Positions 9,401 through 52,033 of a DNA stretch of 52,033 nucleotides are shown here, one piece after another. The stretch lies in assembly GCA_017410455.1 (NCBI GenBank), contig JAFQQT010000025.1, positions 1 to 52,033 on the forward strand. The letters are read 5' to 3'. This DNA comes from Clostridia bacterium. Lineage in GTDB: Bacteria; Bacillota; Clostridia; Christensenellales; Aristaeellaceae. The position numbers and the translations under genes are program-made. Position 1 is the first letter of the stretch, and each line of letters opens with the position of its first letter. A model generated the notes under the pieces. It ran no database searches. It was not told the origin of the DNA and saw only the letters and a program-made list of their open reading frames with translations.

Positions 9401-12400
9401 GGATTCGGATCGATCTGGTAGCCGATGGGGGATTTGATCTCCTGTACCGCATACAGACCGGGCCACAGCGGCTCGGTCGTGACGGAAGCAGCATCACCAG
9501 CCGTGGTCAGGGATTCAATAATGACCGTACCTTCCGGGTAGATCACATTGCCCTGCCTGTCAACAATATCCTCACCAGCAGAAACCTGGAACACAGTGCC
9601 GGTCAGAACACCATCACCACGGGTGGCGGGATCGGGAATGCTATAGTCGTTGGGCATGGTCGGAATCGCCTTGTTGCGGGGATTGGTGTTGGGATCATCG
9701 CCGTCATACTCGTCAAGGTCACGCTTGTAGATGGTCAGCTGCACCAGCACGGGCATGTTGGTCGCTGCCACATCAGTGATCTCATCCGACTTGACAGTCG
9801 CCGCCAGCTCGATCTCCTCAAACACATAGCCAGCCGTTTCGCCATGCTCCCGGACAATGTACTGTCCCTTGCGCAGCGGTTCAGACATGGCAATGCCATT
9901 GGCATCCGTCACCATCGTACCAGCCAGACCTTCGCCGTACTGATCGTTGTAGAAGATGTCGAACTGGACTCCCTCAATGGGGTTGCCATTCAGACGGTCG
10001 GTCTTCGTCAACCTGATCCAGCCCTTGGTCGGCTCGTTCTCCACATCGACGGTGTAGATTTTCTGATCCTCGGTGATGGTGACTTCAACGGAGAAGCTGT
10101 TGTCAACATAGTGTTCGGGTACACCAGTTTCCTCTACACGGTAAGTGCCCCACGTCAGCAGTGGTGTGATAGCCATACCGTTGGCATCAGTCGTAATGAC
10201 CGCCACGACCTCGCCATCGTTGCTGCCGTTGTGGGAGGGCAAGCCGGAAACACGGGTGACAGTGAACTCGGCACCAGCCAGTGCCTCCTTCGTCAGCTGA
10301 TCGTGCTTCATGATCTGAATACGCCCCTGGATGGGCTGATTGGTACAGCTCAGGTGCGTGGTTTCGTCAGACTTCACCACAGCCTCCAGCGTGTTCAGCT
10401 CACCAGTATAGCCGGTGGGGTTGTCTCGTTCATAGACCATGTACTCGCCCTTATGCAGAGGTTCGGACAGGGCGACGCCATCTGCATTCGTGGTCATACT
10501 GGAAACCAGCTCGCCGCCGTCGTAGATGTCAAAGACAACGCCAGCGATAGGAGTGCGATCAAGTGCATCCACCTTGACGAGCTGAATCCAGCCCTTCGTG
10601 GGTTCGTTTTCGCAATCAACCAGATAGGTACCCATATCTTCCTCGTTGATGACCGCTTCAACGGAGAAACCATTGTCAACGTAGTGTTCCGGTACAGCAG
10701 TTTCCTCTACGCGGTATACACCATAGGTCAGCCAAGGCGTTTCTGCAACACCATTGATGTCCGTGGTGATGGTCGCCACAACTTCGCCGTTGCCGCTGCC
10801 ATTGTGAGAGGGCAGGCCGGAAACACGGGTGACTGTGAAGGTAGCACCGGCCAGACGGTCACCAGTCAGGGAGTCACACTTCTCGATACGGAACTTGCCT
10901 TCAATGGGCTTGTTGGTCACAACCAGATCGGTCGTTTCATCTGAACGGACTTCTGCTTTCAGGTTGACAATCTCGTATACATAGCCGATGGGCGTATCGC
11001 GCTCGGATACCGTGTAGATACCCTTGGGCAGCGGATCGGACACAGCAACGCCATTCTCATCGGTGACGATGGAGCCGATCACCTGGCTATTCTGGGAGAT
11101 GTCGAAGATGACACCTGCGATGGGCGTGTGATCGAGGCTATTGGTTTTGACGATGCGAATGTAACCCATTGTGGGTTCATTCTCGGCTTCGACGATGTAG
11201 GTCTGTTCATGCTCACTGATGGTCACGACTGCTTCGAAGGGATGATTCTCGAAATGCTCCGGAATCTTCGTTTCGATAACAGTGTAGGTGCCCCAGGTCA
11301 GCAGCGGGGATACGGCGACGCCGTCCTCATCGGTGGTCATAACTGCAACAACCTCGCCGTCATTGCTGCCGTTGTGGCTGGGCAGTCCATTGCTCCGGGT
11401 GATGGTAAACTCAGCCCCTGCCAGAGCCTCGCCGGTCAGGGCATCACTCTTTTCGATGCGAATCTGGCCCATGATGGGCTGATTGCTGGCAGTCAGCTGC
11501 GAGGTCTCATCGGACTTCACCACAGCTTCCATCGTGACAAGCTCTCCCGTGTAGCCTTCGGGCAGGCCATGCTCCTTGACGGTGTAGGTACCCTTGGGCA
11601 GCGCTTCGGACGTGGCAACACCATCTGCACCAGTGGTCATGGTGGAGATCAGCTCATCACCCTGGTAGATGTCAAACTGAACGCCTTCGATCAGCGTACC
11701 GTCCAGCGCATCGGTCTTGGTGATCTGCAGATACCCCTTGGTGGGGGTGTTGCTCACTTCAAACGTGTAGGTGACGCCATTTTCATAGGCGGCAATCGTT
11801 TCAGACCAATCGCTGGTGACATAATGTTCAGGAGTCTTGGTTTCAGTCACAGTATAGATGCCGTAAGGGAGCCAGTCTGTGACCGCTTCACCGTTGGCAT
11901 CGGTCGTGATGACAGCAGCCACATTTCCGGATTCATCTATCACAGTGAACTCTGCACCGCTGACCGCTTCGCCCGTCAGATCGTCGGTCTTGATGATACG
12001 GATCTGACTCTTGGACTTGCAGTTGACGGCATGAAGCTCCGTCACAGTATCAGACTGGACTGTGGCTTCCAGCACGACCAGCTCACCGGAGTAACCTACG
12101 GGCAGCGCATCTTCCTTGACGAGGTAAGTACCACGATCCAGGTTGTCACAGCTGGCAACGCCGTTTTCATCGGTGGTCATGGTGGCGATCAGGGTGTCGC
12201 CCTGGTAGATACTGAACTTCACGCCAGCGAGGAAAGCACCGGTTTCGCTGTCAGTCTTGATAAGCCGAATGCTGCCCTTGTTGGGAGCATTGGAGACGGC
12301 GAACTCATAGGTCTTACCGTCCTCATGAGCGTCAATCGTTGCAGTAAAGCCGGAGTTGACATAATGCTCCGGAGCCTTGGTTTCCGTGACCGTGTAGGTA

Positions 12401-15400
12401 CCATAGGTCAGCCAATCGGTGATGGCGACACCATCTTCATCAGTCGTAATGGTAGCAACCACCACACCGACGTTATCGGTGATGGTGAACTCTGCTCCAG
12501 CAAGGGCAGCGTCGTTCATGGCATCGGTCTTGACGATCCTGATTTTGCTGGTGCTGGGAGTGTTGGTGGCCTGCAGCTCACAGGTTACATCGGACACAAC
12601 GTTTGCTTCCAGCACGATCAGCTCACCTGCATAACCCGTAGGAAGAGCATCTTCCTTAACGGTATAGGTGCCGGGCACAAGGCCATTGAGCATAGCGACA
12701 CCGTTGGTATCCGTGGTCATGGAGCCGACCAGGACAGTGCCGGAATACACATTGAACTTGACACCGGCAATGGGCTTTGCCGATACAGCGTCGGTCTTGA
12801 CCAGTCGGATGCCGCCTTCGGTCGGCTGATTGGCTACTGCGAACTCGTAGGTCTTACCGTCCTCATAGGCATCGACTTTCTGGGAAAAGCCACTGTTGAC
12901 ATAGTGGTCAGGTGCAGCGGTTTCCGTGACCATGTAGGTGCCATAGATCAGCCAATCACTTTCAGTCTTGCCGTCAGCATCGGTGCTCAGCACTTCAACC
13001 ACATTGCCAGCCGCATCGGTGATGGTGAACTCAGCACCAGCCAGAGCAGCACCGCTCAGTGCATCGGTCTTGACGATCCGCACCTTGCTGCGGCTGGGGG
13101 TATTGGTGGCAGACAGCTCGGTGATCTGGTCAGACACAACCACGGCAGTCATTTCAGCGAGCTCACCCACATAGCCAGTGGGCAGGGAGTGTTCCTTCAC
13201 GGTGTAGGTGCCCTTTTCCAGATCCTCGATGATCGCAATGCCCTGGGCATTCGTGGTCATGGTGCCGATAAGCGTATCAGCCTGGTACACGTCAAACTGG
13301 ACACCCGCAATAGGCTGCTGCGTCAGGGCATTTGTCTTGATAACTTTGATGCCACCCTTGGTGGGGTCGTTCTCGACGGAGATGGTGTAGGTCTTGCCGT
13401 TCTCGTAGGCTTCAATGCGGGTAGAGAAACCGCGATTGATGTAGGAATCAGGAGCCTGCGTCTCCGTGATGGTGTAGATGCCATACGGAAGCCAACCGCT
13501 GGTGGTGGTACCATCTTCGCCGGTAACCAGCTGGCCAATGACGGTTCCAGCAGCATTGGCAATAGAAAACTCCGCGCCCGGCAGCATTTCGCCGGTTACG
13601 GAGTCAGTCTTGATGATTCTGATTTTACTCTGGGAAGGCATGTTGGTGGCATCCAGCACAGTGGTCACGTCCGATGTGACCGTTCCTTCCAGTACGACCA
13701 GCTCGCCGACATAGCCAGTCGGCAGAGCTTGTTCCTTGACCGTATAGGTGCCAGCGTCCAGACCATTGCAGGTTGCAACGCCGTTTGCATCAGTGGTCAT
13801 GGTGGCGATCAGAATATCGCCCTGATAGATGTCAAACTGGACGCCGCTGATAGCATAGCCGGTGACTGCATCCTTCTTGCGGACGATCAGGCCACCCGTC
13901 ATTGCTTCGTTTTCGACCTCAACGGTGTAGGTCTGGCCATTTTCGTAAGCATTGATGGTGGTGCTGAAGCCGCTGTTGATGTAGCGGTCAGAAGCCGCCG
14001 TTTCCATTACGGTGTAAGTACCGTAAGGGAGCCAGTCGGTCTCAGCCGTTCCGTCTTCACCAGTTGTCAGTGTTGCGACAGAAGAACCACTGCTGTCGCA
14101 CACAGAGAATACAGCACCAGCAAGTGGAGCCTTGGTATCGGCGTCGATCTTGACAATCCTGATCTTGCTGGTGCTGGGCATATTCGTTGCCGTCAGTTCA
14201 GTCACAGAATCCGGCTCAACGTCAGCAGTCAACTCGACCAGGTCGCCGGCGTAGCCAGTGGGCAGCGCATGCTCTCTGACTGTGTACTGGCCACGGGGCA
14301 GATTTCCCGACACTGCTACACCATCTTCATTGGTAATCATGGTACCAACCAGCGTGCCATTCGCATCGAAGATGTCAAACTGCACATTGGCAATGGCCCG
14401 ACCATTGGAGGCATCCGTCTTGGTCAGCCGAATACCACCCTGCATGGCCGTATTCTCCACATGGATGGTATAGGTCTTTCCATTCTCCGTGGCTTCGATG
14501 ACCGTAGTGAAGCCTCTGTTGATGTATCCATCAGGAGCCTGAACTTCGGTGACGGTGTAGGACCCGTAAGGGAGCCAGTCGGTTTCGGCAGAACCATCTG
14601 CGTCAGTGGTCAGCGTTGCAACAATAGCTCCGCTCACATCAGTAACAGTGAAGATCGCACCGGACAGTGTATCCTGCGTGTCCGCGTCAACTTTGGTGAT
14701 GCGGATCTTGCCCACGATTACCTCGTTGGTCATCTCGATGGTCAGGAGCTGACCATTTTCAGTGATGGATGCAGAATAGAGTGCATCATCTTCCTGATAG
14801 CCTTCGGGAGCCTGAATTTCCTGAACGTAGTAGTCACCGGCAGGGAGGTTCGTCCACTCGGCAATACCAGAGGCATCCGTCGTGATCGGAGAGCCCACCG
14901 GTGAGGAAGCAGCATCAAGCAGCTGGAATACTGCTCCGGCCAGTGCTGAACCAGTGGAGGCGTCAGACTTCATCACGCGAATACTTCCGGTAATGGGAAT
15001 CGGTGTGGGCGTGGGAACAGGAGTCGGCGTGATCGAGGGCGGAGGTTCGGCTACCGTGAACGCCATGTCCTGATAGTAGCTTCGGTTATCGAGGTGATAC
15101 GCGATCCACAATTCCTGGCTGCCGGTCAGAGAAGCGTTCTGAGCATTGGTCACAATGTCAGTCAGTCGCTCACGCAGCTGGTCTGTAGACAAGGAGCAGC
15201 GGGAGCCAGCTGCCAGATTACGAATCGTGAAGGATTGACCAAGATAAGCCCAGATGGCCTGCTGCTTGATTGCATAGTCCTCATCGCTGTCTTCGGGGAC
15301 ATTGTTGAGAATCCACAGCAGACCGGCATCAGTGCCGGGTTCCAGACCACCATCGCGGCCAGAGGTCGAAGCATCTGATGCTTCGATGCAGTAGGCGGTA

Positions 15401-15999
15401 TACTTCACCCCATCGACTGTGACCCAATGCCGGGTGATGGAAGTGGAGCTGCTGCCGTCTTTCTGAACGATGATACCATAGATGTTATTGCCCTCTTTGC
15501 CCAGACGAACAGCCTCGTCGCCAGTGAAGCGAGAAGGGCTTGCTGCTGAGCGCAGAGAGGGGGCCTGAAGCTGATCGACAGGTGCAGGAGTAGAATCAAC
15601 AGCCTGATCGGCTTCTGTTGCTGAGTCAGCGGCAGGATCGGTAACAGTGGGATCACTTACCGCTTCGCCGGAAGGCTCCTCGGACGCATCACTCTCATCT
15701 GTGCCTTCGACGCTGCTGCCGGTTTCTTTGTCTTCCACTGGCTGTTCAGTTCCTTCGGCGGGAGTTTCTTCGGGGAGCGGTTCGACAGGGACGGCTTCCG
15801 ATTCATTGGTCAGATCCTCCTCGGTGATCGTAGTATCGGGCATGGGGCTTTCTTCGGTGGGGACATCAGGGAGCTCGGAGGACACAGGCGGAATCTCAGT
15901 TTCAGATTCCGCCAGGACGCCCATGGGGAGCATCGTCATCAGCAGGAGGATTGCCATCAGCATGGCGATGATCCGCTTGCCCATCATTTTCAGACGCAT
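6409..15999 (-). CDS. Giant thioester-domain, SpaA/Cna-B repeat surface adhesin
   Basis: A 3196-residue wall-anchored protein. A signal peptide (residues about 1-30, cut near VLA-ES) is followed by a Pro/Glu/Thr-rich stretch to about residue 150. A thioester domain comes next, with Cys in TAYCIEAS (about 205-212) and Gln in KQQAIWAYLG (about 245), the pair that forms an internal thioester and can bind host surfaces covalently. After a Pro/Thr linker I count 29 SpaA/Cna-B domains; most keep the early Lys (as in IRIVKTDA), the Glu (as in YTVTETKAP) and a late Asn that form isopeptide bonds. Domains 2-19 alternate between two types. The C terminus has NIQTGAG, a membrane segment and KKHQK, a sorting signal. 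It lies 20 bp after the sortase gene. GAAAGGAAG precedes the ATG. Confidence 0.93.
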   Translation of the reverse strand: MRLKMMGKRIIAMLMAILLLMTMLPMGVLAESETEIPPVSSELPDVPTEESPMPDTTITEEDLTNESEAVPVEPLPEETPAEGTEQPVEDKETGSSVEGTDESDASEEPSGEAVSDPTVTDPAADSATEADQAVDSTPAPVDQLQAPSLRSAASPSRFTGDEAVRLGKEGNNIYGIIVQKDGSSSTSITRHWVTVDGVKYTAYCIEASDASTSGRDGGLEPGTDAGLLWILNNVPEDSDEDYAIKQQAIWAYLGQSFTIRNLAAGSRCSLSTDQLRERLTDIVTNAQNASLTGSQELWIAYHLDNRSYYQDMAFTVAEPPPSITPTPVPTPTPIPITGSIRVMKSDASTGSALAGAVFQLLDAASSPVGSPITTDASGIAEWTNLPAGDYYVQEIQAPEGYQEDDALYSASITENGQLLTIEMTNEVIVGKIRITKVDADTQDTLSGAIFTVTDVSGAIVATLTTDADGSAETDWLPYGSYTVTEVQAPDGYINRGFTTVIEATENGKTYTIHVENTAMQGGIRLTKTDASNGRAIANVQFDIFDANGTLVGTMITNEDGVAVSGNLPRGQYTVREHALPTGYAGDLVELTADVEPDSVTELTATNMPSTSKIRIVKIDADTKAPLAGAVFSVCDSSGSSVATLTTGEDGTAETDWLPYGTYTVMETAASDRYINSGFSTTINAYENGQTYTVEVENEAMTGGLIVRKKDAVTGYAISGVQFDIYQGDILIATMTTDANGVATCNGLDAGTYTVKEQALPTGYVGELVVLEGTVTSDVTTVLDATNMPSQSKIRIIKTDSVTGEMLPGAEFSIANAAGTVIGQLVTGEDGTTTSGWLPYGIYTITETQAPDSYINRGFSTRIEAYENGKTYTISVENDPTKGGIKVIKTNALTQQPIAGVQFDVYQADTLIGTMTTNAQGIAIIEDLEKGTYTVKEHSLPTGYVGELAEMTAVVVSDQITELSATNTPSRSKVRIVKTDALSGAALAGAEFTITDAAGNVVEVLSTDADGKTESDWLIYGTYMVTETAAPDHYVNSGFSQKVDAYEDGKTYEFAVANQPTEGGIRLVKTDAVSAKPIAGVKFNVYSGTVLVGSMTTDTNGVAMLNGLVPGTYTVKEDALPTGYAGELIVLEANVVSDVTCELQATNTPSTSKIRIVKTDAMNDAALAGAEFTITDNVGVVVATITTDEDGVAITDWLTYGTYTVTETKAPEHYVNSGFTATIDAHEDGKTYEFAVSNAPNKGSIRLIKTDSETGAFLAGVKFSIYQGDTLIATMTTDENGVASCDNLDRGTYLVKEDALPVGYSGELVVLEATVQSDTVTELHAVNCKSKSQIRIIKTDDLTGEAVSGAEFTVIDESGNVAAVITTDANGEAVTDWLPYGIYTVTETKTPEHYVTSDWSETIAAYENGVTYTFEVSNTPTKGYLQITKTDALDGTLIEGVQFDIYQGDELISTMTTGADGVATSEALPKGTYTVKEHGLPEGYTGELVTMEAVVKSDETSQLTASNQPIMGQIRIEKSDALTGEALAGAEFTITRSNGLPSHNGSNDGEVVAVMTTDEDGVAVSPLLTWGTYTVIETKIPEHFENHPFEAVVTISEHEQTYIVEAENEPTMGYIRIVKTNSLDHTPIAGVIFDISQNSQVIGSIVTDENGVAVSDPLPKGIYTVSERDTPIGYVYEIVNLKAEVRSDETTDLVVTNKPIEGKFRIEKCDSLTGDRLAGATFTVTRVSGLPSHNGSGNGEVVATITTDINGVAETPWLTYGVYRVEETAVPEHYVDNGFSVEAVINEEDMGTYLVDCENEPTKGWIQLVKVDALDRTPIAGVVFDIYDGGELVSSMTTNADGVALSEPLHKGEYMVYERDNPTGYTGELNTLEAVVKSDETTHLSCTNQPIQGRIQIMKHDQLTKEALAGAEFTVTRVSGLPSHNGSNDGEVVAVITTDANGMAITPLLTWGTYRVEETGVPEHYVDNSFSVEVTITEDQKIYTVDVENEPTKGWIRLTKTDRLNGNPIEGVQFDIFYNDQYGEGLAGTMVTDANGIAMSEPLRKGQYIVREHGETAGYVFEEIELAATVKSDEITDVAATNMPVLVQLTIYKRDLDEYDGDDPNTNPRNKAIPTMPNDYSIPDPATRGDGVLTGTVFQVSAGEDIVDRQGNVIYPEGTVIIESLTTAGDAASVTTEPLWPGLYAVQEIKSPIGYQIDPNPFYVDSRGASYQSTVPTVEYAGLSRNEILYGAQAIVKVLGNNDNTTDPTRVEIPEAGAEFRVFLKSAGSYENARDFERDYLITDENGYAMTKPLPYGVYVLEQTAGKDGYEIKGPIEFSIDGTESLVNPPPLTLSDKPILYRLKLIKTDADTGKVITLANTSFKIKDSQGEYITQTVYYPREVEIDTFTTDATGSVTLPEVINWGHYFIEEIKAPEGYLIRTDELAVFIGNAGDQPGQTYEVEIEIPNESVMGRIELVKTGLTLTGFMTANEHGYEVTRPVYEDRYLAGATFEIRAAEDIIGGDGTLWYTKDSLVETITTSGTGSDMSKELPLGRYYLIETGAPVGYILEDVPYEADLTYLDGNTPVVTIQVKAGNKYLPASVALVKHKEVTKVVTSENGMVHQVITTAPGEGFTFGLYNAKDIHYVNGTLMADTLMAVGVTDEQGLLHISGYFPHGEYYIKELAAPAGWQINPDAFSVSIQPDMVAEDAAVIQIVYPEVVYDELIYTPITLTKTDITGVETLPGALIEVMNSEGTLIYREFTDANGEIPDIPVVPGTYTFREVYAPEGYELNTTEMTFTVDELGNITGDTVIRDDYTRVTLVKQDMDDNPLAGVEFGLLKDDEFLVAVAQSDAKGIVTFEKIPCGKYTIREVQPLPGYLLNDTVVHLTVDNTFANPSEPLAVIENHPIEVILHKIDKDNKPLPGAIFGLFDSDGFLCMTALSDVTGTVKFSYVPYGSYTIRELEAPDGYLLSQTVIPIEIDENYQNSVEPLATVVNQAARLQYKKVDTSGKLLPGVEFSLINADTGEIVEIVTSDDAGEFVFTRFTYGNWIVRETKTPEGYNVMPDIELKVDENWVEPEPFTLVNIPNHYEFVKTDNKGNPMPGVKFTLEDGAGNILRDLVSGEDGIVHVTDLTPGVYIIREIETLEGYTLSEETIKVVIDEKYIVPDEMFRFVNYPNIQTGAGFEMTPLMWSDIILALCALLSMVAILILKKHQK
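9750..14720 (-). repeat. Coding repeat array: nine two-domain SpaA units
   Basis: SpaA domains 2-19 alternate strictly. One type has AGAEFTITD and YGTYTVTET blocks. The other has AGVQFDIYQ and GTYTVKE-ALPTGY blocks. The repeat unit is thus a pair, about 540 bp or 180 residues. Similarity between units is visible in the DNA as well as the protein, pointing to growth by unequal recombination. Domains 1 and 20-29 are more divergent single domains. Three neighbouring domains of the first type (14, 16 and 18) share an extra insert SGLPSHNGS or NGLPSHNGS, so they are probably recent copies. Confidence 0.85.
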
Positions 16000-27085: not shown

Positions 27086-28233
27086 AGCTTGGTATCATTG
27101 GCGTGGGCAACATCGGCTCGGCCCACTTTGGCAGCGTGATGCGCGGACTGTGCCCGGACATTGTTCTGACGGCTGCAGCGGACCGCCGCGAGAGCCGCCG
27201 CCAGTGGATCCGCGAGAACGGCCCGGCGGATATCGCCGTCTTCACGGAGGGCAGCGACCTGATCGCCTCCGGGGCCTGCGACGCGGTGCTGATCGCCACG
27301 CCCCATTACCAGCACCCGACCCTGGCGGCGGAAGCCTTCCGCCACGGCCTGCATGTGCTGTGCGAGAAGCCTGCGGGCGTGTATACCCTGCAGGTGCGGG
27401 AGATGATCGCAGCGGCGGATGAGCGGCCCGACCTGGTCTTTGCCATGATGTTCAACCAGCGCACCAACTGCGTCTACCGCAAGATGAAGGAGATGATCAC
27501 CAGCGGCGAGATCGGCGAGATCAAGCGCATGTCCTGGCTGGTGACGGACTGGTACCGCACGCAGTTCTACTATGACTCCGGCGCCTGGCGCGCCACCTGG
27601 GCCGGGGAGGGCGGCGGCGTGCTGCTGAACCAGTGCCCCCATCAGCTGGATCTGCTGCAGTGGCTCTGCGGCCTGCCGGCGAAGGTGCATGCCTTCTGCC
27701 ACGAGGGCAAGTGGCACGACGTGGAGATTGAGGACGACGTGACGGCGTACCTGGAGTTCCCGAACGGCGCGACGGGCGTCTTCGTCACCACTACCGGCGA
27801 CGCCCCCGGCACCAACCGCCTGGAAATCACCGGCACCCGGGGCCGCCTCGTCTGCGAGAACGACGTGCTGACCTTCGATAAGCTGGAGATGGACGAGCGC
27901 GCCTGGTGCAGGGTGTGCAAGGAGGGCTTCCGCAAGCCGGAATGCGAGCGCATCGTGGTGGAAACCGACGGCGCAAATCCGCAGCATGTGGGCGTGATGA
28001 ATGCCTTTGCCGCCGCCATCGCCGACCGGAAGAATCCCCTGGTGGCCGACGGCCGCGAGGGCATCCATGGCCTGATGCTCTCCAACGCCATCCACCTCTC
28101 CGCCTGGACGGGCGAGACCGTCACCCTGCCCATTGACGAAAGGAAGTTCTATGACCTGCTGATGGAGCGCTGCAGGACCTCCCGCCACAAGGCCGACAGC
28201 GACGTGACCATGGACACGGCGGGCTCGTACTGA
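27079..28233 (+). CDS. Gfo/Idh/MocA-family NAD(P)-dependent oxidoreductase
   Basis: A 384-residue dehydrogenase. The N-terminal Rossmann fold starts LGIIGVGNIGSAHFGSV (GxGxxG at about residues 7-12). The catalytic EKP motif is in HVLCEKPAGVYT (about residues 93-104). The C-terminal alpha/beta domain carries GGGVLLNQCPHQLDLLQWLCG, where the conserved Asp and His help catalysis. The ATG lies inside the end of the isomerase gene, with GAGAAGGAGGAGAAGG upstream. The two proteins probably act in one sugar or inositol catabolic route, the dehydrogenase oxidising a ring hydroxyl to a keto group. Confidence 0.9.
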   Translation: MLKLGIIGVGNIGSAHFGSVMRGLCPDIVLTAAADRRESRRQWIRENGPADIAVFTEGSDLIASGACDAVLIATPHYQHPTLAAEAFRHGLHVLCEKPAGVYTLQVREMIAAADERPDLVFAMMFNQRTNCVYRKMKEMITSGEIGEIKRMSWLVTDWYRTQFYYDSGAWRATWAGEGGGVLLNQCPHQLDLLQWLCGLPAKVHAFCHEGKWHDVEIEDDVTAYLEFPNGATGVFVTTTGDAPGTNRLEITGTRGRLVCENDVLTFDKLEMDERAWCRVCKEGFRKPECERIVVETDGANPQHVGVMNAFAAAIADRKNPLVADGREGIHGLMLSNAIHLSAWTGETVTLPIDERKFYDLLMERCRTSRHKADSDVTMDTAGSY

Positions 28234-28235
28234 AT

Positions 28236-28370
28236 GAATTAGGAATTATGAATTTGGTTGGGTGACCAAAGCTGCGGCTCGGTTTCGGGTCGCGGCTTTT
28301 TTGTGGCCTCTTTGCCTGGCTGCCACCTTTCGTTTTACAAATCAAATTCCGAATTCCGAATTCCGAATTA
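28236..28370. repeat. MITE-like intergenic element with heptamer-repeat ends
   Basis: The left end reads AATTAGGAATTATGAATTTG. The right end, three copies of TTCCGAA, is its imperfect inverse (AATTCGGAATTCGGAATTTG on the other strand). A second copy of similar design lies at 47,056-47,200. No coding capacity is seen. Confidence 0.55.
28268..28302 (+). terminator. Terminator after the isomerase/oxidoreductase pair
   Basis: AAAGCTGCGGCTCG and CGGGTCGCGGCTT form an imperfect stem with a GTTT-type loop, followed by TTTTT. It sits inside the repeat element described above, about 35 bp after the oxidoreductase stop. Confidence 0.65.
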
Positions 28371-28373
28371 AAT

Positions 28374-28402
28374 TTGACGCATTCGCTCAAAGCCTGTATA
28401 AT
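28374..28402 (+). promoter_or_regulatory. Promoter of recJ
   Basis: TTGACG (28,374-28,379) and a perfect TATAAT (28,397-28,402) are spaced 17 bp apart, 33 bp before the recJ start. It abuts the right end of the repeat element. Confidence 0.8.
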
Positions 28403-28435
28403 AGTCAGTATCTGACGAATCATGGGGGTGATGGC

Positions 28436-30787
28436 ATGCTGGACTACATCCGCAGGGGCACGGACAATCCTGCGCCCATCGGCGATCTGCCGCTGTGGCT
28501 CTCGGGGCTGCTGCGCAATCGCGGGATCGATACGCCGGAAAAGGCGGAGCGCTTCCTGCACCCGGCGCTTTCCCAGCTGCATGACCCCTTCCTGATGCAG
28601 GGGATGGACAAGGCTGTGCGCATCATCCGCGAGGCGGTGGCGGCGGGCATGCCCATCATCGTTTATGGGGATTATGATGTGGACGGCGTGTGTGCTACGT
28701 CGATCCTGCTGGAAACGCTCAGGGAGCTGGGGGCGGAGCCGGATTTCCGCATCCCCTCGCGCCACGAGGAGGGCTACGGCCTCAACTGCGGCGCCGTGCG
28801 GCAGATGGCGGAAACGCACCGGCTGCTGATCACCGTCGATTGCGGGGTGACCAACCACGAGGAGGTGCGCCTGGCGCAGCTGCTGGGCATGACCGTCATC
28901 GTCACCGACCACCACCAGCTGGCGGACACGCCGTCCCCGGCGGATGTGGTGCTCAACCCGCTGCTGGGGGAGTACCCCTTCCGGCGGCTGTGCGGCGCGG
29001 GCGTGGCGCTCAAGCTCACCCAGGCGCTGCTGGGGATGGACGCGGTCATCCGCCGGATTGAACTGGCGGCCCTGGCCACCGTGGCGGACATCGTGCCGCT
29101 GGTGGATGAGAACCGCGTCATCGTCCGCGAGGGCCTCCTGCGCATGGCAAAGACGGAGCGCCCCGGCCTGCGGGCACTGATGCAGGTCAGCGACGTGCAC
29201 CCGCCGGTGAACAGCGGCCATGTGGGCTTCCGCCTGGCGCCGCGGCTGAATGCGGGCGGCCGCCTGGAGGATGCGGGCCAGGGCGTGCTCCTGCTGACCA
29301 CGCAGGACGAGCAGCAGGCCAGCGAGATCGCCCAGCATCTGGAAAAGCGCAACCAGGAGCGCCAGGCCATCGAGCAGGAGATCACCCAGAAGGCCATCGG
29401 CATGATCGGCGAATGCGTGGATTTCCTGCGCGACCGGGTCATCATCGTCGTCGGCGAGGGCTGGAATCACGGCGTCATCGGTCTGGCGGCGGGGCGCATC
29501 TGCGAAAGGTACCATTTCCCCACCATCGTGCTGACGGTGCATGAGGGCGTGGCCGTGGGCTCCTGCCGGTCGATCCCGGGGGTCAATATCCATGGGATGC
29601 TCTCCCTGTGCAAGGATCTGTTCCAGCGTTTCGGCGGGCACGAGCAGGCCGCCGGCCTGACCATGGACGCTGCGCTCATCCCCGAATTGCGCCGCCGCCT
29701 GAACCTGGGCATCGACGAGAACTGCGACATGCGCTGCTACATTCCCCGCAGGGAGTACGATGTGGACGTGCGCCTGGCAGATGTGAACCTCGCCATGGTG
29801 GAGCGGCTCGAGCAGCTGCAGCCCACCGGCTACTGCAACCCCAACCCGGTCTTCCGCGTGCGCGACGCGCATGTGCAGGAGGCACGACGGGTGGGCAGTA
29901 CCCGCACGCACCTGAAAATCAGCCTGGAGGAAAACGGCGCCCTGCGGGGCGGCATCGCCTTCGGGCAGGGGGATTTTTCCGGTTCCGGTGTGGAGCGGGT
30001 GGACGTGCTCTTCACGCCCTCGCGCAACGAGTACCGGGGGCAGGTGACGGCGCAGCTGGAGGTGCAGGCGCTGCGCCCGGCGGCCTGCGCGATGACGCTG
30101 CCGGAGGAGGACACGCTTTTCCGTGCGCTCTTGCAGGAAATCGGGCTGCTCTCGTCGAATGATACAAAAATCTGCTGCGATATGCCGCAGGAGAAGCCCG
30201 CCGCCGTGCAGAAGCGCCTGACGACGGGGCGCGGCGTGCTGCTGCTGGGGCACGAACGCCAGGCGGCCTCGCGGCTGCTGGGCGAGGCGCGCGCCCGCCA
30301 GGACATCCGCCTGGATGTGGCAGCGGGCAGCGTGGCGGACGCCCGGGGCTTCAACACCCTGCTGCTGGGGCCGGAACTGGCGCTGCTGCAGGATGTGTGG
30401 ACGGATATCGTGCTGATCGATGGCGACATGCTGCCCGGCGAGGCGGCGGAGGTGGCTGCACGGTGCCCGCGGGCAAAGATCACCCGCCTGCCGGAGAACC
30501 CTGCGCTGCGGGAGCAGCTGCGCGGGATCACCCTGGACCGCGACACGCTGCGCCGCCTGTACCTGTGCCTGCGGCAGGGGCATGTGCAGAGCCTGCGCCA
30601 GCTGACGGAGGCAGCAGCCCTGAGCACCCCGCAGGTGCTGACCGGGATGACGGCACTCCAGCAGGCCGGGCTGGCGGAAATGACGCTGAGCCCCTTCATG
30701 GTGCGGCTGGTTCCGCTGCCCCGGGGAACGAAGGCGGATCCGCTGGATACGCCCGTGATGAAATATCTGCTGGCGCTGGGGCAGTGA
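28436..30787 (+). CDS. recJ: Single-strand-specific exonuclease RecJ
   Basis: A 783-residue 5'-3' exonuclease for recombination and mismatch repair. Catalytic motifs of the DHH superfamily: VYGDYDVDGVCATS (DYDVDG at residues 79-84), ITVDCGV, VTDHHQL (DHH at 158-160) and, in the DHHA1 domain, the GGHEQAAG block near residue 400. An OB-fold and a C-terminal extension of about 200 residues follow, which in Firmicutes RecJ replaces the minimal C terminus. I chose the ATG at 28,436 (GGGGGTGATGGC upstream) because the longer frame runs through the promoter and repeat. The 58-bp gap to rel holds no terminator, so they may be co-transcribed. Confidence 0.93.
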   Translation: MLDYIRRGTDNPAPIGDLPLWLSGLLRNRGIDTPEKAERFLHPALSQLHDPFLMQGMDKAVRIIREAVAAGMPIIVYGDYDVDGVCATSILLETLRELGAEPDFRIPSRHEEGYGLNCGAVRQMAETHRLLITVDCGVTNHEEVRLAQLLGMTVIVTDHHQLADTPSPADVVLNPLLGEYPFRRLCGAGVALKLTQALLGMDAVIRRIELAALATVADIVPLVDENRVIVREGLLRMAKTERPGLRALMQVSDVHPPVNSGHVGFRLAPRLNAGGRLEDAGQGVLLLTTQDEQQASEIAQHLEKRNQERQAIEQEITQKAIGMIGECVDFLRDRVIIVVGEGWNHGVIGLAAGRICERYHFPTIVLTVHEGVAVGSCRSIPGVNIHGMLSLCKDLFQRFGGHEQAAGLTMDAALIPELRRRLNLGIDENCDMRCYIPRREYDVDVRLADVNLAMVERLEQLQPTGYCNPNPVFRVRDAHVQEARRVGSTRTHLKISLEENGALRGGIAFGQGDFSGSGVERVDVLFTPSRNEYRGQVTAQLEVQALRPAACAMTLPEEDTLFRALLQEIGLLSSNDTKICCDMPQEKPAAVQKRLTTGRGVLLLGHERQAASRLLGEARARQDIRLDVAAGSVADARGFNTLLLGPELALLQDVWTDIVLIDGDMLPGEAAEVAARCPRAKITRLPENPALREQLRGITLDRDTLRRLYLCLRQGHVQSLRQLTEAAALSTPQVLTGMTALQQAGLAEMTLSPFMVRLVPLPRGTKADPLDTPVMKYLLALGQ

Positions 30788-30844
30788 CATGCCGCGCCAA
30801 GCAGGAGGAGAAGACGCAAACCCCAGGGAAGGGAGGTTCACAAG

Positions 30845-33043
30845 ATGACGTATACCGTATATGAAGCGATGCCGCTGGAAGCGATGATGGCCCGCGTGCA
30901 GAAGTACCACCCGGGAGACGGCGCAGAGCTGGTACGAAAGGCCTATCTGTTCGCCGAGGACGCCCACAAGGATCAGAAGCGCAAGAGCGGGGAGCCTTAT
31001 TTTATCCATCCCTGCTTTGTGGCCAGCATCCTGACGGAGCTGATGATCGACCCGCCGACGATTGCTGCAGGCCTGCTGCACGACACGGTGGAAGATGTGA
31101 AGACCGTGACGCTGGACACGCTCCGCAGGGAATTCGGCGACGAGGTGGCCTGGCTGGTGGACGGCGTGACGAAGCTGGACAAGCTCGATTTTGCCGACAA
31201 AGAGGAGGCACAGGCCGAGTCCCTGCGCAAGATGATCTTCGCCATGTCCAAGGACATCCGCGTGGTGCTCATCAAGCTGGCAGACCGCCTGCACAACATG
31301 CGCACCCTCAAGCATCAGGCGCAGCACAGGCAGGTGGCCATCGCCCGGGAAACCCTGGACATCTATGCCCCCCTGGCGCACCGCCTGGGCGTGTACGCCA
31401 TCAAGCAGGAGCTGGAAGACCTCTCTCTGCGCTACATCGACCCGGCTGGCTATCAGAACCTGGTGCAGCTGGTGGGCCAGAAGCGCTCCGAGCGGCAGGA
31501 GAACATCCGCATGGTCATCTCCGAGCTCTCCGCCAAGCTGGATGAGATGCACATCCACTATGACATTGACGGCCGCCCCAAGTCCTTCTACAGCATCTAC
31601 CGCAAGATGGTGCTGCAGAACAAGCCCTTCGACCAGATCTACGACCTGATCGCCATCCGCGTGCTGGTGGATTCCGTGGCGGACTGCTACGCCGTGCTGG
31701 GTGCGGTGCACACGCTGTGGAACCAGATGCCCGGCCGCTTCAAGGACTACATCTCCGTCCCCAAGGCCAACATGTATCAGAGCCTGCACACCACGGTGAT
31801 GGGCGGGCGCAAGATGCCCTTCCCCTTCGAGGTGCAGATCCGCACCTGGGAGATGCACCGCCTGGCGGAATACGGCATCGCGGCCCACTGGCGCTACAAG
31901 GAGGGCGGCGGCAGCGGCAGCCTGGACGCCAAACTCTACTGGGTGCGCCAGATTCTGGACTGGTCCAGCGACGCCCGCGACTCCAAGGAGTTCGTCGCAA
32001 CGCTGAAAACTGACCTGTTCGCCGAGGAGGTCTTCCTCTTCACCCCCAAGGGCGATGTGATCTCCATGCCCAAGGGCGCGACTCCGCTGGATTTTGCCTA
32101 CCGGATCCACTCCGCCGTGGGCAACAAGTGCGTGGGCAGCCGCATCAACGGCAAGATCATGCCCCTGGATACCCCGCTGCAGACCGGCGACCGGGTGGAG
32201 ATCATCACCAGCGCCAGCTGCAAGGGTCCGTCCACGGACTGGCTGCGCATCTGCACCACGCCCCAGGCCAAGGCGAAGATCCGCGCCTTCCTCAAAAAGG
32301 AATTCAAGGAGGAGAACATCGAGCTGGGTCGCAGCATGGTGGAGCGCGAGTGCCGCCGCCGTGGCCTGGCCCCTTCGGACCTGCTCAAGCCGGAGTTCTA
32401 CGAGCAGATCATGCGCAAATACGGCTTCACCGGGCTGGATGATATCTTTGCTGCGGTGGGCTACGGCGGCATGGCGGCGGTGTATGTCGTCAGCCGCTTG
32501 GTGGAGGAGCAGCGGCAGGCTCAGCAGAGCGCGGCACCCAGGATTGAGGATCTCATCGCGCCCGAGGAGCCCGTCCGGGCCCGTGCCGCGTCTAAGGCGC
32601 ATCACGGCGTGATCATGCCCGGCATGGCGGATGTGGACATCCCGGTGCGCTTTGCCCGCTGCTGCAGCCCCGTGCCCGGCGATGACATCGTGGGCTACAT
32701 CACCCGCGGCCGCGGCGTGACCATCCACAAGGCGGACTGCGTCAACGCCTGCGCCGCTGAGCAGGAGCGCCGCATCGATGTGGACTGGGCGGATGAGAAC
32801 GTGGGCTCCTTCGACGTGTCGGTGAAGGTGGTGGCCTACGACAAGCCCAACCTGCTGGTGGAGCTGGCCTCGGTCATCAGCGAGATGAACATCACCATCA
32901 AGAACTGCACCGCTGCGGTGGAGCCCAAGACCCGCATTGCCACCTTCCGCTTCGTGGTGGAGATCCGGAGCCGCGAGCAGATGGACAAGCTGGTCAAGCA
33001 GCTCATGCGCAAGAGCGACGTGATCGACGTCTTCCGCGCTTAA
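30845..33043 (+). CDS. relA: Bifunctional (p)ppGpp synthetase/hydrolase Rel
   Basis: A 732-residue long RSH enzyme that makes and degrades the stringent-response alarmone. The hydrolase domain keeps the HD motif in GLLHDTVEDV (residues 79-80). The synthetase domain has PKSFYSIYRKM, then YDLIAIRVLV and YQSLHTTVMG, ending in VQIRTWEMHRLAEYGIAAHW. TGS (VFLFTPKGDVISMP), helical and RIS/zinc regions (RFARCCSPVPGD) and a C-terminal ACT domain follow. All parts look intact, so both activities are expected. GGGAGG precedes the ATG. The TAA stop lies inside the first palindrome of the 156-bp repeat that follows. Confidence 0.95.
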   Translation: MTYTVYEAMPLEAMMARVQKYHPGDGAELVRKAYLFAEDAHKDQKRKSGEPYFIHPCFVASILTELMIDPPTIAAGLLHDTVEDVKTVTLDTLRREFGDEVAWLVDGVTKLDKLDFADKEEAQAESLRKMIFAMSKDIRVVLIKLADRLHNMRTLKHQAQHRQVAIARETLDIYAPLAHRLGVYAIKQELEDLSLRYIDPAGYQNLVQLVGQKRSERQENIRMVISELSAKLDEMHIHYDIDGRPKSFYSIYRKMVLQNKPFDQIYDLIAIRVLVDSVADCYAVLGAVHTLWNQMPGRFKDYISVPKANMYQSLHTTVMGGRKMPFPFEVQIRTWEMHRLAEYGIAAHWRYKEGGGSGSLDAKLYWVRQILDWSSDARDSKEFVATLKTDLFAEEVFLFTPKGDVISMPKGATPLDFAYRIHSAVGNKCVGSRINGKIMPLDTPLQTGDRVEIITSASCKGPSTDWLRICTTPQAKAKIRAFLKKEFKEENIELGRSMVERECRRRGLAPSDLLKPEFYEQIMRKYGFTGLDDIFAAVGYGGMAAVYVVSRLVEEQRQAQQSAAPRIEDLIAPEEPVRARAASKAHHGVIMPGMADVDIPVRFARCCSPVPGDDIVGYITRGRGVTIHKADCVNACAAEQERRIDVDWADENVGSFDVSVKVVAYDKPNLLVELASVISEMNITIKNCTAAVEPKTRIATFRFVVEIRSREQMDKLVKQLMRKSDVIDVFRA

Positions 33044-33351
33044 GGGGCGCTGCCCCTTAAGGATCCCTGCCAGAGGGCCATCGGCCCTCTGGACTCCCAT
33101 TCTCGCGATTGAGTCGCGCGCCTCCGGTTTGGCTGCGCGCGCGTGGGGGTGGGGGAGCGGCTTTCATCATAGTAGAATCATCGGGCTCTCCTGAATTAAG
33201 GGGCGCTGCCCCTTAAGGATCCCTGCCAGAGGGCCATCGACCCTCTGGACTCCCATTCTCGCGATTGAGTCGCGCGCCTCCGGTTTGGCTGCGCGCGCGT
33301 GGGGGTGGGGGAGCGGCTTTCATCATAGTAGAATCATCGGGCTCTCCTGAA
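33040..33351. repeat. 156-bp sequence duplicated in tandem between rel and dtd
   Basis: Copy 1 (33,040-33,195) and copy 2 (33,196-33,351) are head to tail and differ by one base (G at 33,084, A at 33,240). Each holds three hairpins. The first has TTAAGGGGC and GCCCCTTAA arms with a GCT loop. The second has CCAGAGGGCC and GGCCCTCTGG arms, weakened by the one difference in copy 2. The third is a GC-rich CGCGCGC/GCGCGCG pair. Copy 1 supplies the stop codon of rel. The stretch has no protein gene. The hairpins may terminate or protect the rel message. Confidence 0.9.
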
Positions 33352-48621: not shown

Positions 48622-48649
48622 TTGCAAATCCCTGAAAATATGCTATACT
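48622..48649 (+). promoter_or_regulatory. Promoter of the ctsR-mcsA-mcsB-clpC operon
   Basis: TTGCAA (48,622-48,627) and TATACT (48,644-48,649) are spaced 16 bp apart, just before the CtsR operator. Confidence 0.75.
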
Positions 48650-48655
48650 GGATAT

Positions 48656-48672
48656 GGTCAAAGATAGTCAGA
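48656..48672 (+). promoter_or_regulatory. CtsR operator
   Basis: GGTCAAA-GAT-AGTCAGA matches the known CtsR heptad direct repeat (RGTCAAA-n3-RGTCAAA) with one deviation (G for A at the sixth base of the second heptad). It starts 7 bp after the -10 box, so bound CtsR would block transcription of its own operon. Confidence 0.85.
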
Positions 48673-48704: not shown

Positions 48705-49196
48705 ATGAAGCTGAGCGATTCGATAGAGAACTTTATCAAGACGCTGCTGGCGGAGGATTCGCCGGAGGTGGAACTCAAACGGAGCGAGCTGGCGGAGTAT
48801 TTCGGCTGCGCGCCCAGCCAGATCAACTATGTGCTGGCCACGCGCTTCTCGCCCGACCAGGGGTACATCACCGAGTCGCGGCGGGGCGGCGGGGGCTACA
48901 TCCGCATTGTGCGGGTGGTGCAGACGGGCTCGCAGCGGCTGATGTACCTGATCAACGAGCGCATTGGCGAGAGCATCAGCGAGATGGAATCGGCGCGGCT
49001 GATCCAGCAGCTGATGGAACAGCAGGTGGTGACGGTGAGGGAGGCGGAGCTGATGCGGGCGGCCATCTCGGCGCAGGCGATGTCCGTGCCGGTGCCCGAC
49101 GCGATCAAGAATGCCTTCCGCGCCCGGATGATGAAGACCATGCTGCTCACCATTGCCCGGCAGAACCGGGGGCAGGGAGGTGGCGCGAATGTCTGA
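48705..49196 (+). CDS. ctsR: Heat-shock repressor CtsR
   Basis: A 163-residue repressor of Clp protease genes. Residues 1-75 form the winged helix: LSDSIENFIKTLLAED, LKRSELAEYFGCAPSQINYV and the Gly-rich wing SRRGGGGYIRIVRV, which is the thermosensing loop in Bacillus. The C-terminal dimerisation domain ends LLTIARQNRG. The start ATG at 48,705 has GAGGAGG upstream. The gene overlaps mcsA by 8 bp. A CtsR operator precedes it, so it regulates itself. Confidence 0.95.
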   Translation: MKLSDSIENFIKTLLAEDSPEVELKRSELAEYFGCAPSQINYVLATRFSPDQGYITESRRGGGGYIRIVRVVQTGSQRLMYLINERIGESISEMESARLIQQLMEQQVVTVREAELMRAAISAQAMSVPVPDAIKNAFRARMMKTMLLTIARQNRGQGGGANV

Positions 49197-49782
49197 ACAC
49201 GAAAATGTGCAGGGGCTGTGCGAGGATTGCGGGAAGAATGACGCAGTCTGCACCATGGCGGTGATGATGGGCACGAAGACCATCCACCGCAAGCTCTGCC
49301 AGGCCTGCATGGCCAAAACGAGCATGGCGCTGGCCGCAGGGAATCTGGGTCAGGTGCTGGGCTCGATCCTCGCAGCAGCCCAGGGGGCGGCGCAGCCTGC
49401 TGCAGCGCCTGACGCACTCCGGCCCCAGCCTGCGCCCAAGCCACAGGCGGCGCCCGCCCTGCCCACGGTGGAAGGGGAGCCGGAGAGCTGCCCCGGCTGC
49501 GGCCTGCCCTATGCGCAGCTCCGCCAGCATGGCCGCGCGGGTTGCGCCCGGTGCTGGACGGCTTTCCGCAGGACGGTGGAGAAGGGGCTGGCCAGCTATG
49601 CGCCTGCGGTGCAGCATACCGGACGGCGCCCGGTGGACTCCGAGGAAGCCCGGCGCGACCGCGCGGTGCGGGAGATGCTCCAGCGCCGCCTGGAGGAGGC
49701 CATCGCCCGGGAGGACTATGAATCCGCCGCGCAGCTGCGCGATGCGATGCGGGAGATCGACAGGCAGGAGGGCGCGAAATGA
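49189..49782 (+). CDS. mcsA: McsA-like zinc protein, activator partner of McsB
   Basis: A 197-residue protein. Four zinc-binding CxxC pairs are kept: LCEDCGKND, LCQACMAK, SCPGCGLPY and GCARCWTAF. An Ala/Pro/Gln linker lies between the second and third. The C-terminal UVR motif REMLQRRLEEAIAREDYESA and following residues form a coiled coil. In Bacillus McsA activates the McsB arginine kinase and binds metals. It overlaps ctsR by 8 bp and mcsB by 4 bp. This protein looks intact, in contrast to McsB. Confidence 0.92.
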   Translation: MSEHENVQGLCEDCGKNDAVCTMAVMMGTKTIHRKLCQACMAKTSMALAAGNLGQVLGSILAAAQGAAQPAAAPDALRPQPAPKPQAAPALPTVEGEPESCPGCGLPYAQLRQHGRAGCARCWTAFRRTVEKGLASYAPAVQHTGRRPVDSEEARRDRAVREMLQRRLEEAIAREDYESAAQLRDAMREIDRQEGAK

Positions 49783-50789
49783 TGCGGGAAGAAGACGTCA
49801 TCGTCGGTGCAACCGCGGTTCTGACGCGCAATTACGCCGACCTGCCCTTCGATGCGGTCAGCAACGCGGAAACCGCCGGGCGCGTCATCAGCCGCACCGC
49901 GGGCGTCCTGCACGGGAACGGCTTCACGCTGCACCTGCTGCGGGAGATGACTGCGGACAACGGCCGGGCGCTGGCAGAAAAGGGGCAGATCCCTGCGGAG
50001 ATGGCCGGCGCGGCGAAGAATCCGGCGGTGCTGCTGCCCCTGGAGGGCAACGCATCGGTGGCCCTGGGCGGCAGCGAGCATGTGTTCATCATGGCGCGCC
50101 GCCACGGAAGCGCGCTGCCTGAGGCCGTGGCGGACTGCCTGGCGGTGGAGGATCAGCTCTCACGCCGGGTCAGCTTCGCCTTTGACGGGCAGATGGGCTA
50201 CCTGCAGGCGAGCGCGGAGATGCTGGGCACCGGCCTGCGCGCTGCGCTGGTGGTGCATGTGCCGCTGCTGGTGCGGGCCAACCGCCTGCCTGAGGCGCTG
50301 CGGGCGCTGGAAGAGATGGGCCTGCGCGGCCGCTTCTGCGGCATGATGGGCAAGCGCCCCCGGGGCGATCTGCTGGCGGTGGAGAACCGCTGCGCCATCG
50401 GCCGCACGGAGCAGGAGATCTGCCAGCTGATCCAACGGGGCGCGGAGAAGGTGCTGTGCATGGAGGCCGGGATGCGCCAGCAGGCGGCGGAGGCGAACTC
50501 CCTGCGCCTGACGGACCGGCTGTGCCGCGCCCAGGGGCTGACCCGCTCCGCGCGGCTGATCAGCGAGATCGAGTTCTGGTGCATCTGGTCGGATCTGCGG
50601 CTGGGCGCGCAGATGGAGCTGCTGCCCCTGACGGTCGGGCAGGTGGATGCGCTGCTGCCGGAGATGATGGACGCGCACCTGCGCAACTATGCCGAAGAGC
50701 CTCTGGCAGGGGAAGCCATGGACGAGTGCCGCTGCAACCGGCTGCGGGAACTGCTCTACGATATTCCCATGGAAAACGGGGCGTTATGA
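49779..50789 (+). CDS. mcsB: Degenerate McsB: arginine-kinase-fold protein lacking the active-site motifs
   Basis: A 336-residue protein that aligns along the McsB/phosphagen-kinase domain, including [16 protein letters not shown] and [12 protein letters not shown]. Yet compared from memory with Bacillus McsB, the ATP-binding SSRIRLARN is GATAVLTRN (residues about 10-18). The catalytic NEEDHIR is GGSEHVF (97-103). The SCPTNVGTGLRAS block is [13 protein letters not shown] (144-156, Cys to Ser). The GEGSE loop is replaced (about 188-195), and the late RPNERDIRRA block is missing. About 25 N-terminal residues are also absent. The frame is intact and overlaps mcsA by 4 bp, so it is expressed but probably inactive as a kinase. 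It may act as an adaptor. Confidence 0.85.
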
Positions 50790-51000
50790 GAAAACGGCAG
50801 CGCCTGAACGTAGAATAAGGATGAAGCGTATGCTTCCGGCATATGCTTCTGGCCCCACCAGAGCGCGCGGCAGGCGATGGAAGCTGCCCGGGAGCTCGGT
50901 GGAGCCGAATGAAGAATATCGTGTCGCGCACGCAGCGCAGGGATGCCGGAAACGGGAGAAGCGTTCCTCTGCCAGCGGCGCGTATCAAGGAGGAAGGATC

Positions 51001-52033
51001 ATGGCGCCAATCGGACATTTCACCAAGCGGGCCCAGCAGGCCATTAACCTGGCCCGACAGGCTGCGGCGAAGGAGAAGCAGCCCTTCGTGGGCACAGTGC
51101 ACATCCTGCAGGGCGTGCTGCTGGCTGGCGGAAACTATCCGCAGGAAGTGACGCAGAAGGTCAGCGTGGGCTATCTTCAGCAGGTCATTCACGGCCTGCA
51201 GACCGAAGCGGGCGAAGCGGATGGCAAGTCCACGCAGCTGGCGATGACCCCCAACGCCAAACGCCTGCTGGAGCAGGCCGTGCGCGCGAGCCGTCAGCTG
51301 GGGCAATCCCATGTGAGCACGGAGCTGCTGCTGCTGGCCATCGTATCTGCGGAAAAGCCCTTTGCGGCCACGAGCATCCTGGAGCGCTGCGGCGTTGACC
51401 TGCATAAGACGGCCGAGCTCCTGCGCACGGATATCAGCGGCCACACCTATATCCCCCCCAAGGTGGAGGGAGAGCGGCCTGCGCCCGCCCCGGGCACGCC
51501 CCGCAAGGAGAAGCCGGAGCGTCCCACCGGCAAGGACAAGTCGGGCGCCCAGCCTGCGGCCCCCGATCGCAACGCGGGCAGCAGCGGTCAGAGCCGCCCC
51601 CACCAGAACAGCTTCAGCCAGCTCATCGGCGGCGGTCAGCCCACGGGTGGCCAGCCCTCCGGCGGCAAATCCTCCGGCGGTAATCAGCCCTCCCGCAATG
51701 GCAACCAGCCCCGTGGAACCAACCAGAACAGCATGCTGGGCCGCTATGGCCGCGACCTGACCCAGCTGGCCCGCGAGGGCAAGCTGACGCCCATCATCGG
51801 CCGCGACAAGGAGATCGTCCGCGCGATCCAGATCCTCATCCGCTTCACGAAGTCCAACCCCGTGCTGGTGGGTGAACCCGGCGTTGGCAAGACCAGCGTG
51901 GTGGAGGGCCTGGCGCAGCGCATCGTGGCGGGCAATGTCCCCCCGATGCTGTTGAACAAGCGCATCATTGCCCTGGATATCAGCGGCATGGTGGCGGGCA
52001 GCAAGTACCGCGGCGAGTTCGAGGAGCGCCTCA
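51001..52033 (+). CDS. clpC: ATP-dependent Clp protease ATPase ClpC (3' end cut by the window)
   Basis: The first 344 residues of a Clp/Hsp100 unfoldase, starting [20 protein letters not shown]. The N domain (1-150) has two Clp_N repeats: [11 protein letters not shown] and [11 protein letters not shown]. Bacillus ClpC has GTEHILLGL in both; the Glu residues bind phosphoarginine. The first is Val here (residue 34). A Gly/Ser/Pro/Gln/Asn-rich linker of about 94 residues (153-246) follows, far longer than the usual short linker. The first AAA domain starts [20 protein letters not shown], with Walker [10 protein letters not shown] (291-299). AAGGAGGAAGG precedes the ATG. The 211-bp gap after mcsB holds no clear terminator. 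Confidence 0.93.

Follow-up and report, generated by a model that had tools for sequence, protein, structure and literature searches.

We analyzed a 52,033-nucleotide stretch of DNA (contig JAFQQT010000025.1, assembly GCA_017410455.1; referred to as the window) from a Clostridia bacterium of the GTDB family Aristaeellaceae (genome, 3.3 Mb in 93 contigs, 92% complete). Its last genes are ctsR, mcsA, mcsB, and clpC, in operon order and with a CtsR operator upstream (Table 1). McsB normally phosphorylates arginines, ClpC reads the mark through one Glu in each of its Clp_N repeats, and YwlE erases it; here, we report an McsB that has almost certainly lost its active site, together with its relatives. 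The start listed for ctsR (48654) overlaps the CtsR operator, so 48705, chosen from the placement of operator and ribosome-binding site, is preferred; CtsR is intact, as an initial annotation of the window (made from the letters alone) had held, and is 60 to 72% identical to that of ten relatives.

Table 1. Features of the ctsR operon at the end of the window
Feature	Position	Strand	Remarks
ctsR-mcsA-mcsB-clpC, last genes of the window	48705-52033	+	
Sigma-70-like promoter (TTGCAA-16-TATACT), 5' of ctsR	48622..48649	+	Consensus match only; 1 found vs 0.4 expected (shuffles)
CtsR operator, GGTCAAAGATAGTCAGA	48656..48672	+	1 mismatch; sole match in window; 0.13 expected by chance
ctsR, helix-turn-helix and C-terminal domain intact	48705..49196	+	Pfam CtsR 5e-34, CtsR_C 1.5e-18
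mcsA, two zinc fingers, 8/8 cysteines, remainder strongly diverged	49189..49782	+	NCBIfam McsA 7.5e-18, under curated cut-off
mcsB, predicted pseudokinase, 336 aa	49779..50789	+	Catalytic residues 2/8
McsA-contact loop codons (FDGQMGYL), directly before lost Cys167	50181..50204	+	
clpC, first 344 codons	51001..52033	+	Contig end cuts gene; repeat 1 GTVH, repeat 2 STEL

The initial annotation had described the McsB motifs SSRIRLARN, NEEDHIR, SCPTN, and GEGSE as all changed in a protein whose frame and operon position are kept, and both statements held. Window McsB aligned nearly end to end (residues 5 to 326; phmmer E value, 8.9e-29) with Geobacillus McsB 6FH1, where SSRIRLARN is changed, GGSEHVF stands at the next motif, SCPTN has become ASAEM, and GEGSE has no equivalent (MGKRP). 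The same columns were recovered when 99 other McsB rows, and later 122, were aligned with it, so the catalytic residues are not hidden at shifted positions. The protein scored 92.7 bits against PF00217 (cut-off, 22.4) and missed both NCBIfam McsB cut-offs (129 of 500 bits, NF053707; 164 of 385 bits, NF002194). An AlphaFold2 model built with 40 relatives (predicted local distance difference test [pLDDT], 92.8) had the full phosphagen-kinase and dimerization-domain fold, with a template modeling (TM) score of 0.90 to 6FH1 (Foldseek).

Eight phosphagen-kinase residues were scored (R29, R31, the Glu of NEED, R125, C167, R176, R207, and the Glu of GEGSE), with Asp accepted in place of the catalytic Glu; we take these to line the site on the basis of Limulus phosphagen-kinase numbering (C271 and E314 are named in PDB titles). 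Window McsB keeps two of the eight, the equivalents of R176 and R207. At Bacillus subtilis positions R29, R31, R34, R125, R176, R207, and R337, it has T, V, R, F, R, R, and M, and position C167 is Ser. According to PMC7235348, a Lys substitution at any one of these seven arginines kills the B. subtilis kinase, and C167S is a kinase-inactive mutant. The phosphoarginine receptor motif RDXXRA reads MDECRC, which retains the second Arg and does not amount to the full motif; the first Arg is absent from most intact relatives too. On these sequence grounds, it is near certain that the active site is lost and the kinase dead.

No second McsB, which the initial annotation had named as a finding that would overturn its reading, was found in the window genome (92% complete), where a single PF00217 match occurs. 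A search of the same genome for the C[TS]GNTCR loop of YwlE was likewise negative, and its sole LMWPc protein carries the loop CHGNICRS (YwlE, CTGNTCRS); the search would not detect a YwlE whose loop differs. MecA, an alternative ClpC adaptor, had no match in this genome. One perfect CtsR box was found in the genome (G000, C30:84380-84396; L252, with its gene in L036). It stands some 100 bases 5' of where Clp_N first matches in a gene for which ClpB is the top match over its 5' part (TIGR03346, 1.8e-61), and the regulon of CtsR thus looks alive.

The closest relatives came from a CtsR query against named genomes, of which the best 80 of 558 confirmed loci were used; these are mostly titled Clostridia or Clostridiales bacterium, and many titles name ruminant gut. 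The sister genome L170 (RGIG6305, sheep rectum) is 89% identical to the window in CtsR and 48% in McsB; its McsB has lost the same motifs, replaced by different letters, and scores 0/8. In a tree of CtsR and ClpC AAA domains (32 rows), the window and L170 grouped together (bootstrap/SH-like approximate likelihood ratio test, 100/99), L171 was their sister (100/98), and L172 to L175 joined at the following node, completing a clade of seven (100/100). The McsB of L171 to L175 score 8/8 only with Asp accepted (NEDDH or GEDDH); the change from catalytic Glu to Asp is present also in L073 and L076.

Window ClpC has FVGTVH in repeat 1 (Glu to Val) and VSTELL in repeat 2 (Glu kept, His lost), as the initial annotation had read apart from the His; Glu is thus found in one of the two repeats. 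That annotation had further coupled the loss of writer and reader, and this did not survive comparison. The repeat 1 Glu is gone in all seven clade members (GTVH, GTLH, or GTMH), including L171 to L175 with their 8/8 McsB; the ClpC change therefore precedes the McsB loss and is not its consequence. Family-wide, this Glu is missing in 3/32 rows with a dead McsB and 6/69 with an intact one (states defined below), without association. The repeat 2 Glu is missing in 23/32 dead and 10/69 intact rows, but with the tree taken into account, this shrinks to 0.9 of 7 independent pairs. The YwlE loop was found in none of 7 sampled genomes of the genus (L170 to L175 were not searched), nor in the sampled g3, g9, g33, g44, and g48 genomes. 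The order of loss is therefore a missing eraser, catalytic Glu to Asp, ClpC pocket 1, and McsB death, and the supported tree shows the order of the last three.

PF00217 was present in 117 of 150 genomes of the GTDB family, window included. One hundred of the 117 were taken (the 17 left out all scored at least 112 bits), and 23 rows from CtsR loci brought the total to 123 McsB rows, 20 other loci being identical to rows already in. Seventy rows scored 8/8 (intact), 19 scored 5 to 7 (compromised), 33 scored 0 to 3 (dead; in 7 of them, one or two key columns are unread or gapped), and 1 was partial. The dead state requires 8 changes on the tree, and any departure from 8/8 requires 18 among the 99 family rows; these counts give no direction, and the 8/8 site does match distant McsB. 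Beyond the family, 291 genomes of the class were covered and 199 had PF00217; 20 of 25 class McsB, in six other families, keep at most three residues, in a sample drawn mainly from low scorers that is not a frequency estimate.

The Cys is replaced by letters other than Ser in most dead rows. In L111, L113, L123, L124, and L125, C167 is Ser and 6 or 7 of the 8 key residues are present; these are natural relatives of the kinase-inactive mutant and possible first steps of loss. Cys to Ser with 7/8 residues was also seen in L253 and L254 (relatives from family f2 with small genomes, about 0.9 Mb), where the 3.6-kb stretch examined gave neither a CtsR nor an McsA match. In one dead-McsB lineage (G018, L039:4607-6301, minus strand), mcsA and mcsB form a single open reading frame (ORF); the McsB of its sister G062 is intact. 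In a state apart from live and dead McsB, an McsA-type zinc finger heads the ClpC ORF in 23 of the best 80 of 558 loci (L176, L177, L179, L181 to L183, L186 to L190, L195, L204, L206, L207, L209, L211, L215, L216, L220 to L222, and L226), with no McsB match in the stretches examined; both Clp_N repeats are present in the four of these ORFs that were read.

An artefact (assembly error, chimaera, or mis-binned contig) was considered. The window and L170 genomes look metagenome-assembled (L170 by title, the window by its 93 contigs), and window clpC runs off its contig. The pattern is, on the other side, found in 31 further family genomes, L170 has like losses in McsB and ClpC, the window neighbors match the genus, and no internal stop occurs among the PF00217 matches listed; an artefact is scarcely credible. 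Mis-binning in particular, suspected as six congeners have an intact McsB, is unlikely and was rejected: the four best-scoring CtsR matches are congeners (68 to 72% identity), an upstream beta-lactamase-like gene is 61 to 64% identical to that of two congeners, and L170 shows the losses too.

The YwlE loop occurred in 27/49 genomes with intact, 0/18 with compromised, and 0/32 with dead McsB (divergent loops would be missed), and one partial row was positive. These counts rest on 42 YwlE-bearing genomes, that is, 44 loop matches minus G088 and G016, where the match lay outside any LMWPc match. Fisher's test of not-intact against intact gave 3.6e-11 with kinship ignored. With relatedness taken into account, the link was not significant: 3.7 of 13 independent pairs were as expected and 0 opposite (median p 0.125), and for dead against the rest, the figure was 1.0 of 7.

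The partners of the dead McsB are retained. McsA has its full set of eight zinc cysteines in 31/33 dead rows (the exceptions are L058, cut by a contig end, and L047, without the first finger). Window McsA, which the initial annotation took to be intact, is so in its 8/8 zinc cysteines; the rest has diverged, at 35 to 38% identity to congeners. In 118/118 testable rows (32 dead, 17 compromised, and 69 intact), the window among them, ctsR is preceded by a CtsR box with no more than 2 mismatches; shuffles gave a mean best of about 5.

Within McsB, retention in the 33 dead rows (clade-weighted) averaged 0.47 over 84 conserved columns of the intact consensus. Six kinase-essential residues (R34 set aside) were retained at 0.18 (p 0.008) and the lid loop at 0.14. 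Four arginines needed solely for McsA stimulation stood at 0.76 (p 0.04), the four conserved columns of the McsA-contact loop at 0.82 (p 0.015), and the dimerization domain at 0.77. R337 of the kinase set and R86 of the McsA-stimulation set were excluded because both are rare in intact relatives. The contact loop is the Y147-Y153 region of Staphylococcus aureus McsB, mapped via Cys157; there, the McsA zinc finger is reported to act on it: the finger binds this loop and thereby orients the catalytic Cys (PMC12467219). In window McsB, the loop remains while the Cys is gone. A kinase still active through substitute residues might draw on the R176 and R207 equivalents, and the 19 compromised McsB may keep some activity; set against the replacement of both catalytic acids, Cys167, and three nucleotide-binding arginines, the 0/8 score of L170, and the low lid retention across dead McsB, it is highly improbable.

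McsB and McsA also evolve faster in dead lineages. Branch ratios of window plus L170 to L171 were 7.9 for McsB, 10.3 for McsA, 1.4 for CtsR, and 1.2 for the ClpC N domain; relative to L172 to L175, they were 6.1, 4.7, 2.3, and 0.7, respectively. In other dead lineages, the ratio was 2.5 to 8.0 for McsB and 1.7 to 6.7 for McsA (no value for G018; g4 includes compromised rows), and four intact control pairs gave 0.6 to 1.5 for McsB and McsA alike. The picture is not clean: the ratio of g38 is raised also in CtsR (2.8) and the ClpC AAA domains (3.1), that of G018 in the ClpC AAA domains (3.5), and those of G048 and G018 in the ClpC N domain (2.8 and 3.0, respectively).

Repeated loss of the active site, with the protein, the McsA zinc fingers, and the CtsR switch kept, suggests a job that does not need the kinase. 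We consider it somewhat more probable than not that McsB is kept as a pseudokinase, an McsA-bound partner of CtsR and ClpC with no kinase activity; an adaptor or CtsR-regulator role is the reading we favor, and McsB of the window species would then be functional by a binding-only mechanism. The zinc-finger McsA would hold or free McsB according to thiol or protein stress; freed McsB would pull CtsR off the operon by binding, without phosphoarginine, and perhaps pass it to ClpC. The arginine-phosphate tag has been dismantled stepwise here, from a YwlE-type eraser through the catalytic Glu (to Asp) and one ClpC pocket Glu to the kinase. In B. subtilis, oxidation of McsA is reported to free McsB, which then takes CtsR off DNA with no kinase activity (PMC5506225); retention of CtsR, the operator, the McsA cysteines, the contact loop, and the dimerization domain, with no live writer or detectable eraser, fits this binding-only branch. 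McsB C167S also partly supports MgsR turnover, with a half-life of 12.3 min and 17.7 min in the deletion (PMC7235348).

Several observations weigh against a binding-only role. Delivery of CtsR to ClpCP, or the ClpC-adaptor role, is reported to need active McsB kinase in B. subtilis (PMC5506225). The retention tests are nominal, uncorrected, and based on few residues; with R34 included, kinase-essential retention is 0.29 (p 0.07), not significantly depleted, and R34, itself kinase essential, is kept in 32/33 dead rows, so retained residues may be merely structural. Single-gene branch ratios are noisy, that of CtsR spanning 0.2 to 4.7 even in intact control pairs. The ratio of nonsynonymous to synonymous rates (dN/dS; NG86 values, with other g30 genes and the g17 pair outside the set) between window and L170 McsB is 0.65 (0.50 to 0.82), well above the six intact pairs (0.07 to 0.26), so much constraint is gone and decay may be under way. 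Three further dead pairs (two of g38 and the second of g20) lie at 0.35 to 0.44.

Such values are what a relic in decay would give, with the phosphoarginine tag useless and mcsB drifting, functionless, and persisting by translational coupling in the ctsR operon. Branches about 8-fold (McsB) and 10-fold (McsA) those of L171 agree with it, as does the loss of the site in window and L170 with different letters. The dN/dS interval, however, excludes 1; in the absence of selection, some 9 stops should have arisen with the 382 nucleotide differences between the sisters (a rough figure), yet both frames are open, with one gap column. Both sisters keep 15 of the 16 positions that dead clades retain at a frequency of 0.9 or more (the window clade being 1 of the 12 groups). 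Purifying selection is strong in several other dead clades, as judged from the closest pair of each of four: the bootstrapped dead pairs of g29, g12, and g20 gave 0.12, 0.19, and 0.20, respectively, and a g35 pair gave 0.15 with dS saturated. Constraint is therefore clear on several dead McsB and loose on that of the window; decay is the less likely account, though a serious one.

If the pocket is instead repurposed, McsB would bind a phosphoarginine peptide or a nucleotide, via the C-terminal receptor site or the old cleft, and be a reader, not a writer. R341, the second Arg of RDXXRA, is kept in 31/32 dead rows, and the fold is retained; R337, however, is rare even in intact McsB of the family (11/69), the nucleotide-site arginines are mostly lost, and the window genome shows no other PF00217 protein to write phosphoarginine, which leaves repurposing improbable.

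Returning to the pseudokinase as a binding partner, a broader proposal, which we hold tentatively and at a little under an even chance, is that the primary role of McsA-McsB is a kinase-independent thiol- or protein-stress switch on CtsR. Clostridia would then repeatedly drop the arginine-phosphate code, eraser before writer, and keep the pseudokinase switch; elsewhere, the McsA zinc finger would be fused to ClpC instead.

Elsewhere in the window, a 3,196-residue protein with 29 SpaA-type stretches (positions 6409-15999, minus strand) is probably a giant surface protein. A TraG/TraD-type conjugative coupling protein (1890-3701, minus strand) is perhaps from an integrated conjugative element at that contig end. 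A 1,659-aa open frame opposite shorter frames (28121-33100, minus strand), with no Pfam match, may represent a true gene or an open frame arising from GC richness.

Repeated natural loss of catalysis with fold, partner, and target kept is a natural experiment that can separate the kinase role of McsB from its binding role, which work on B. subtilis had to split by mutants; closely related sister species, some with a live and some with a dead McsB, serve as controls. An mcsB annotation need not mean phosphoarginine use. Natural McsB pseudokinases were not treated by title or abstract start in the open-licence literature searched, and of two pseudokinase papers, one names McsB only as a putative kinase and the other only in its references.

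Control by CtsR without arginine phosphorylation has a parallel in bacteria with CtsR and ClpE and no McsA or McsB (PMC5506225); McsB is absent there and is retained in the window. Compared with the active McsB of B. subtilis, Geobacillus, and S. aureus, window McsB has the fold, dimerization domain, contact loop, position between mcsA and clpC, and CtsR operator, but lacks the catalytic acids, Cys167, three nucleotide-binding arginines, the lid motif, and the first receptor-motif Arg. With the B. subtilis C167S mutant, it shares the identical Cys to Ser change; here, the change is natural, is accompanied by many further active-site losses, and belongs to a site loss that recurs in relatives. 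The parts of the McsA-McsB redox switch on CtsR (reviewed in PMC5506225) occur in the window, namely CtsR, its operator, the zinc cysteines of McsA, and McsB at full length; the B. subtilis kinase is active, whereas the window system could keep the binding part only.

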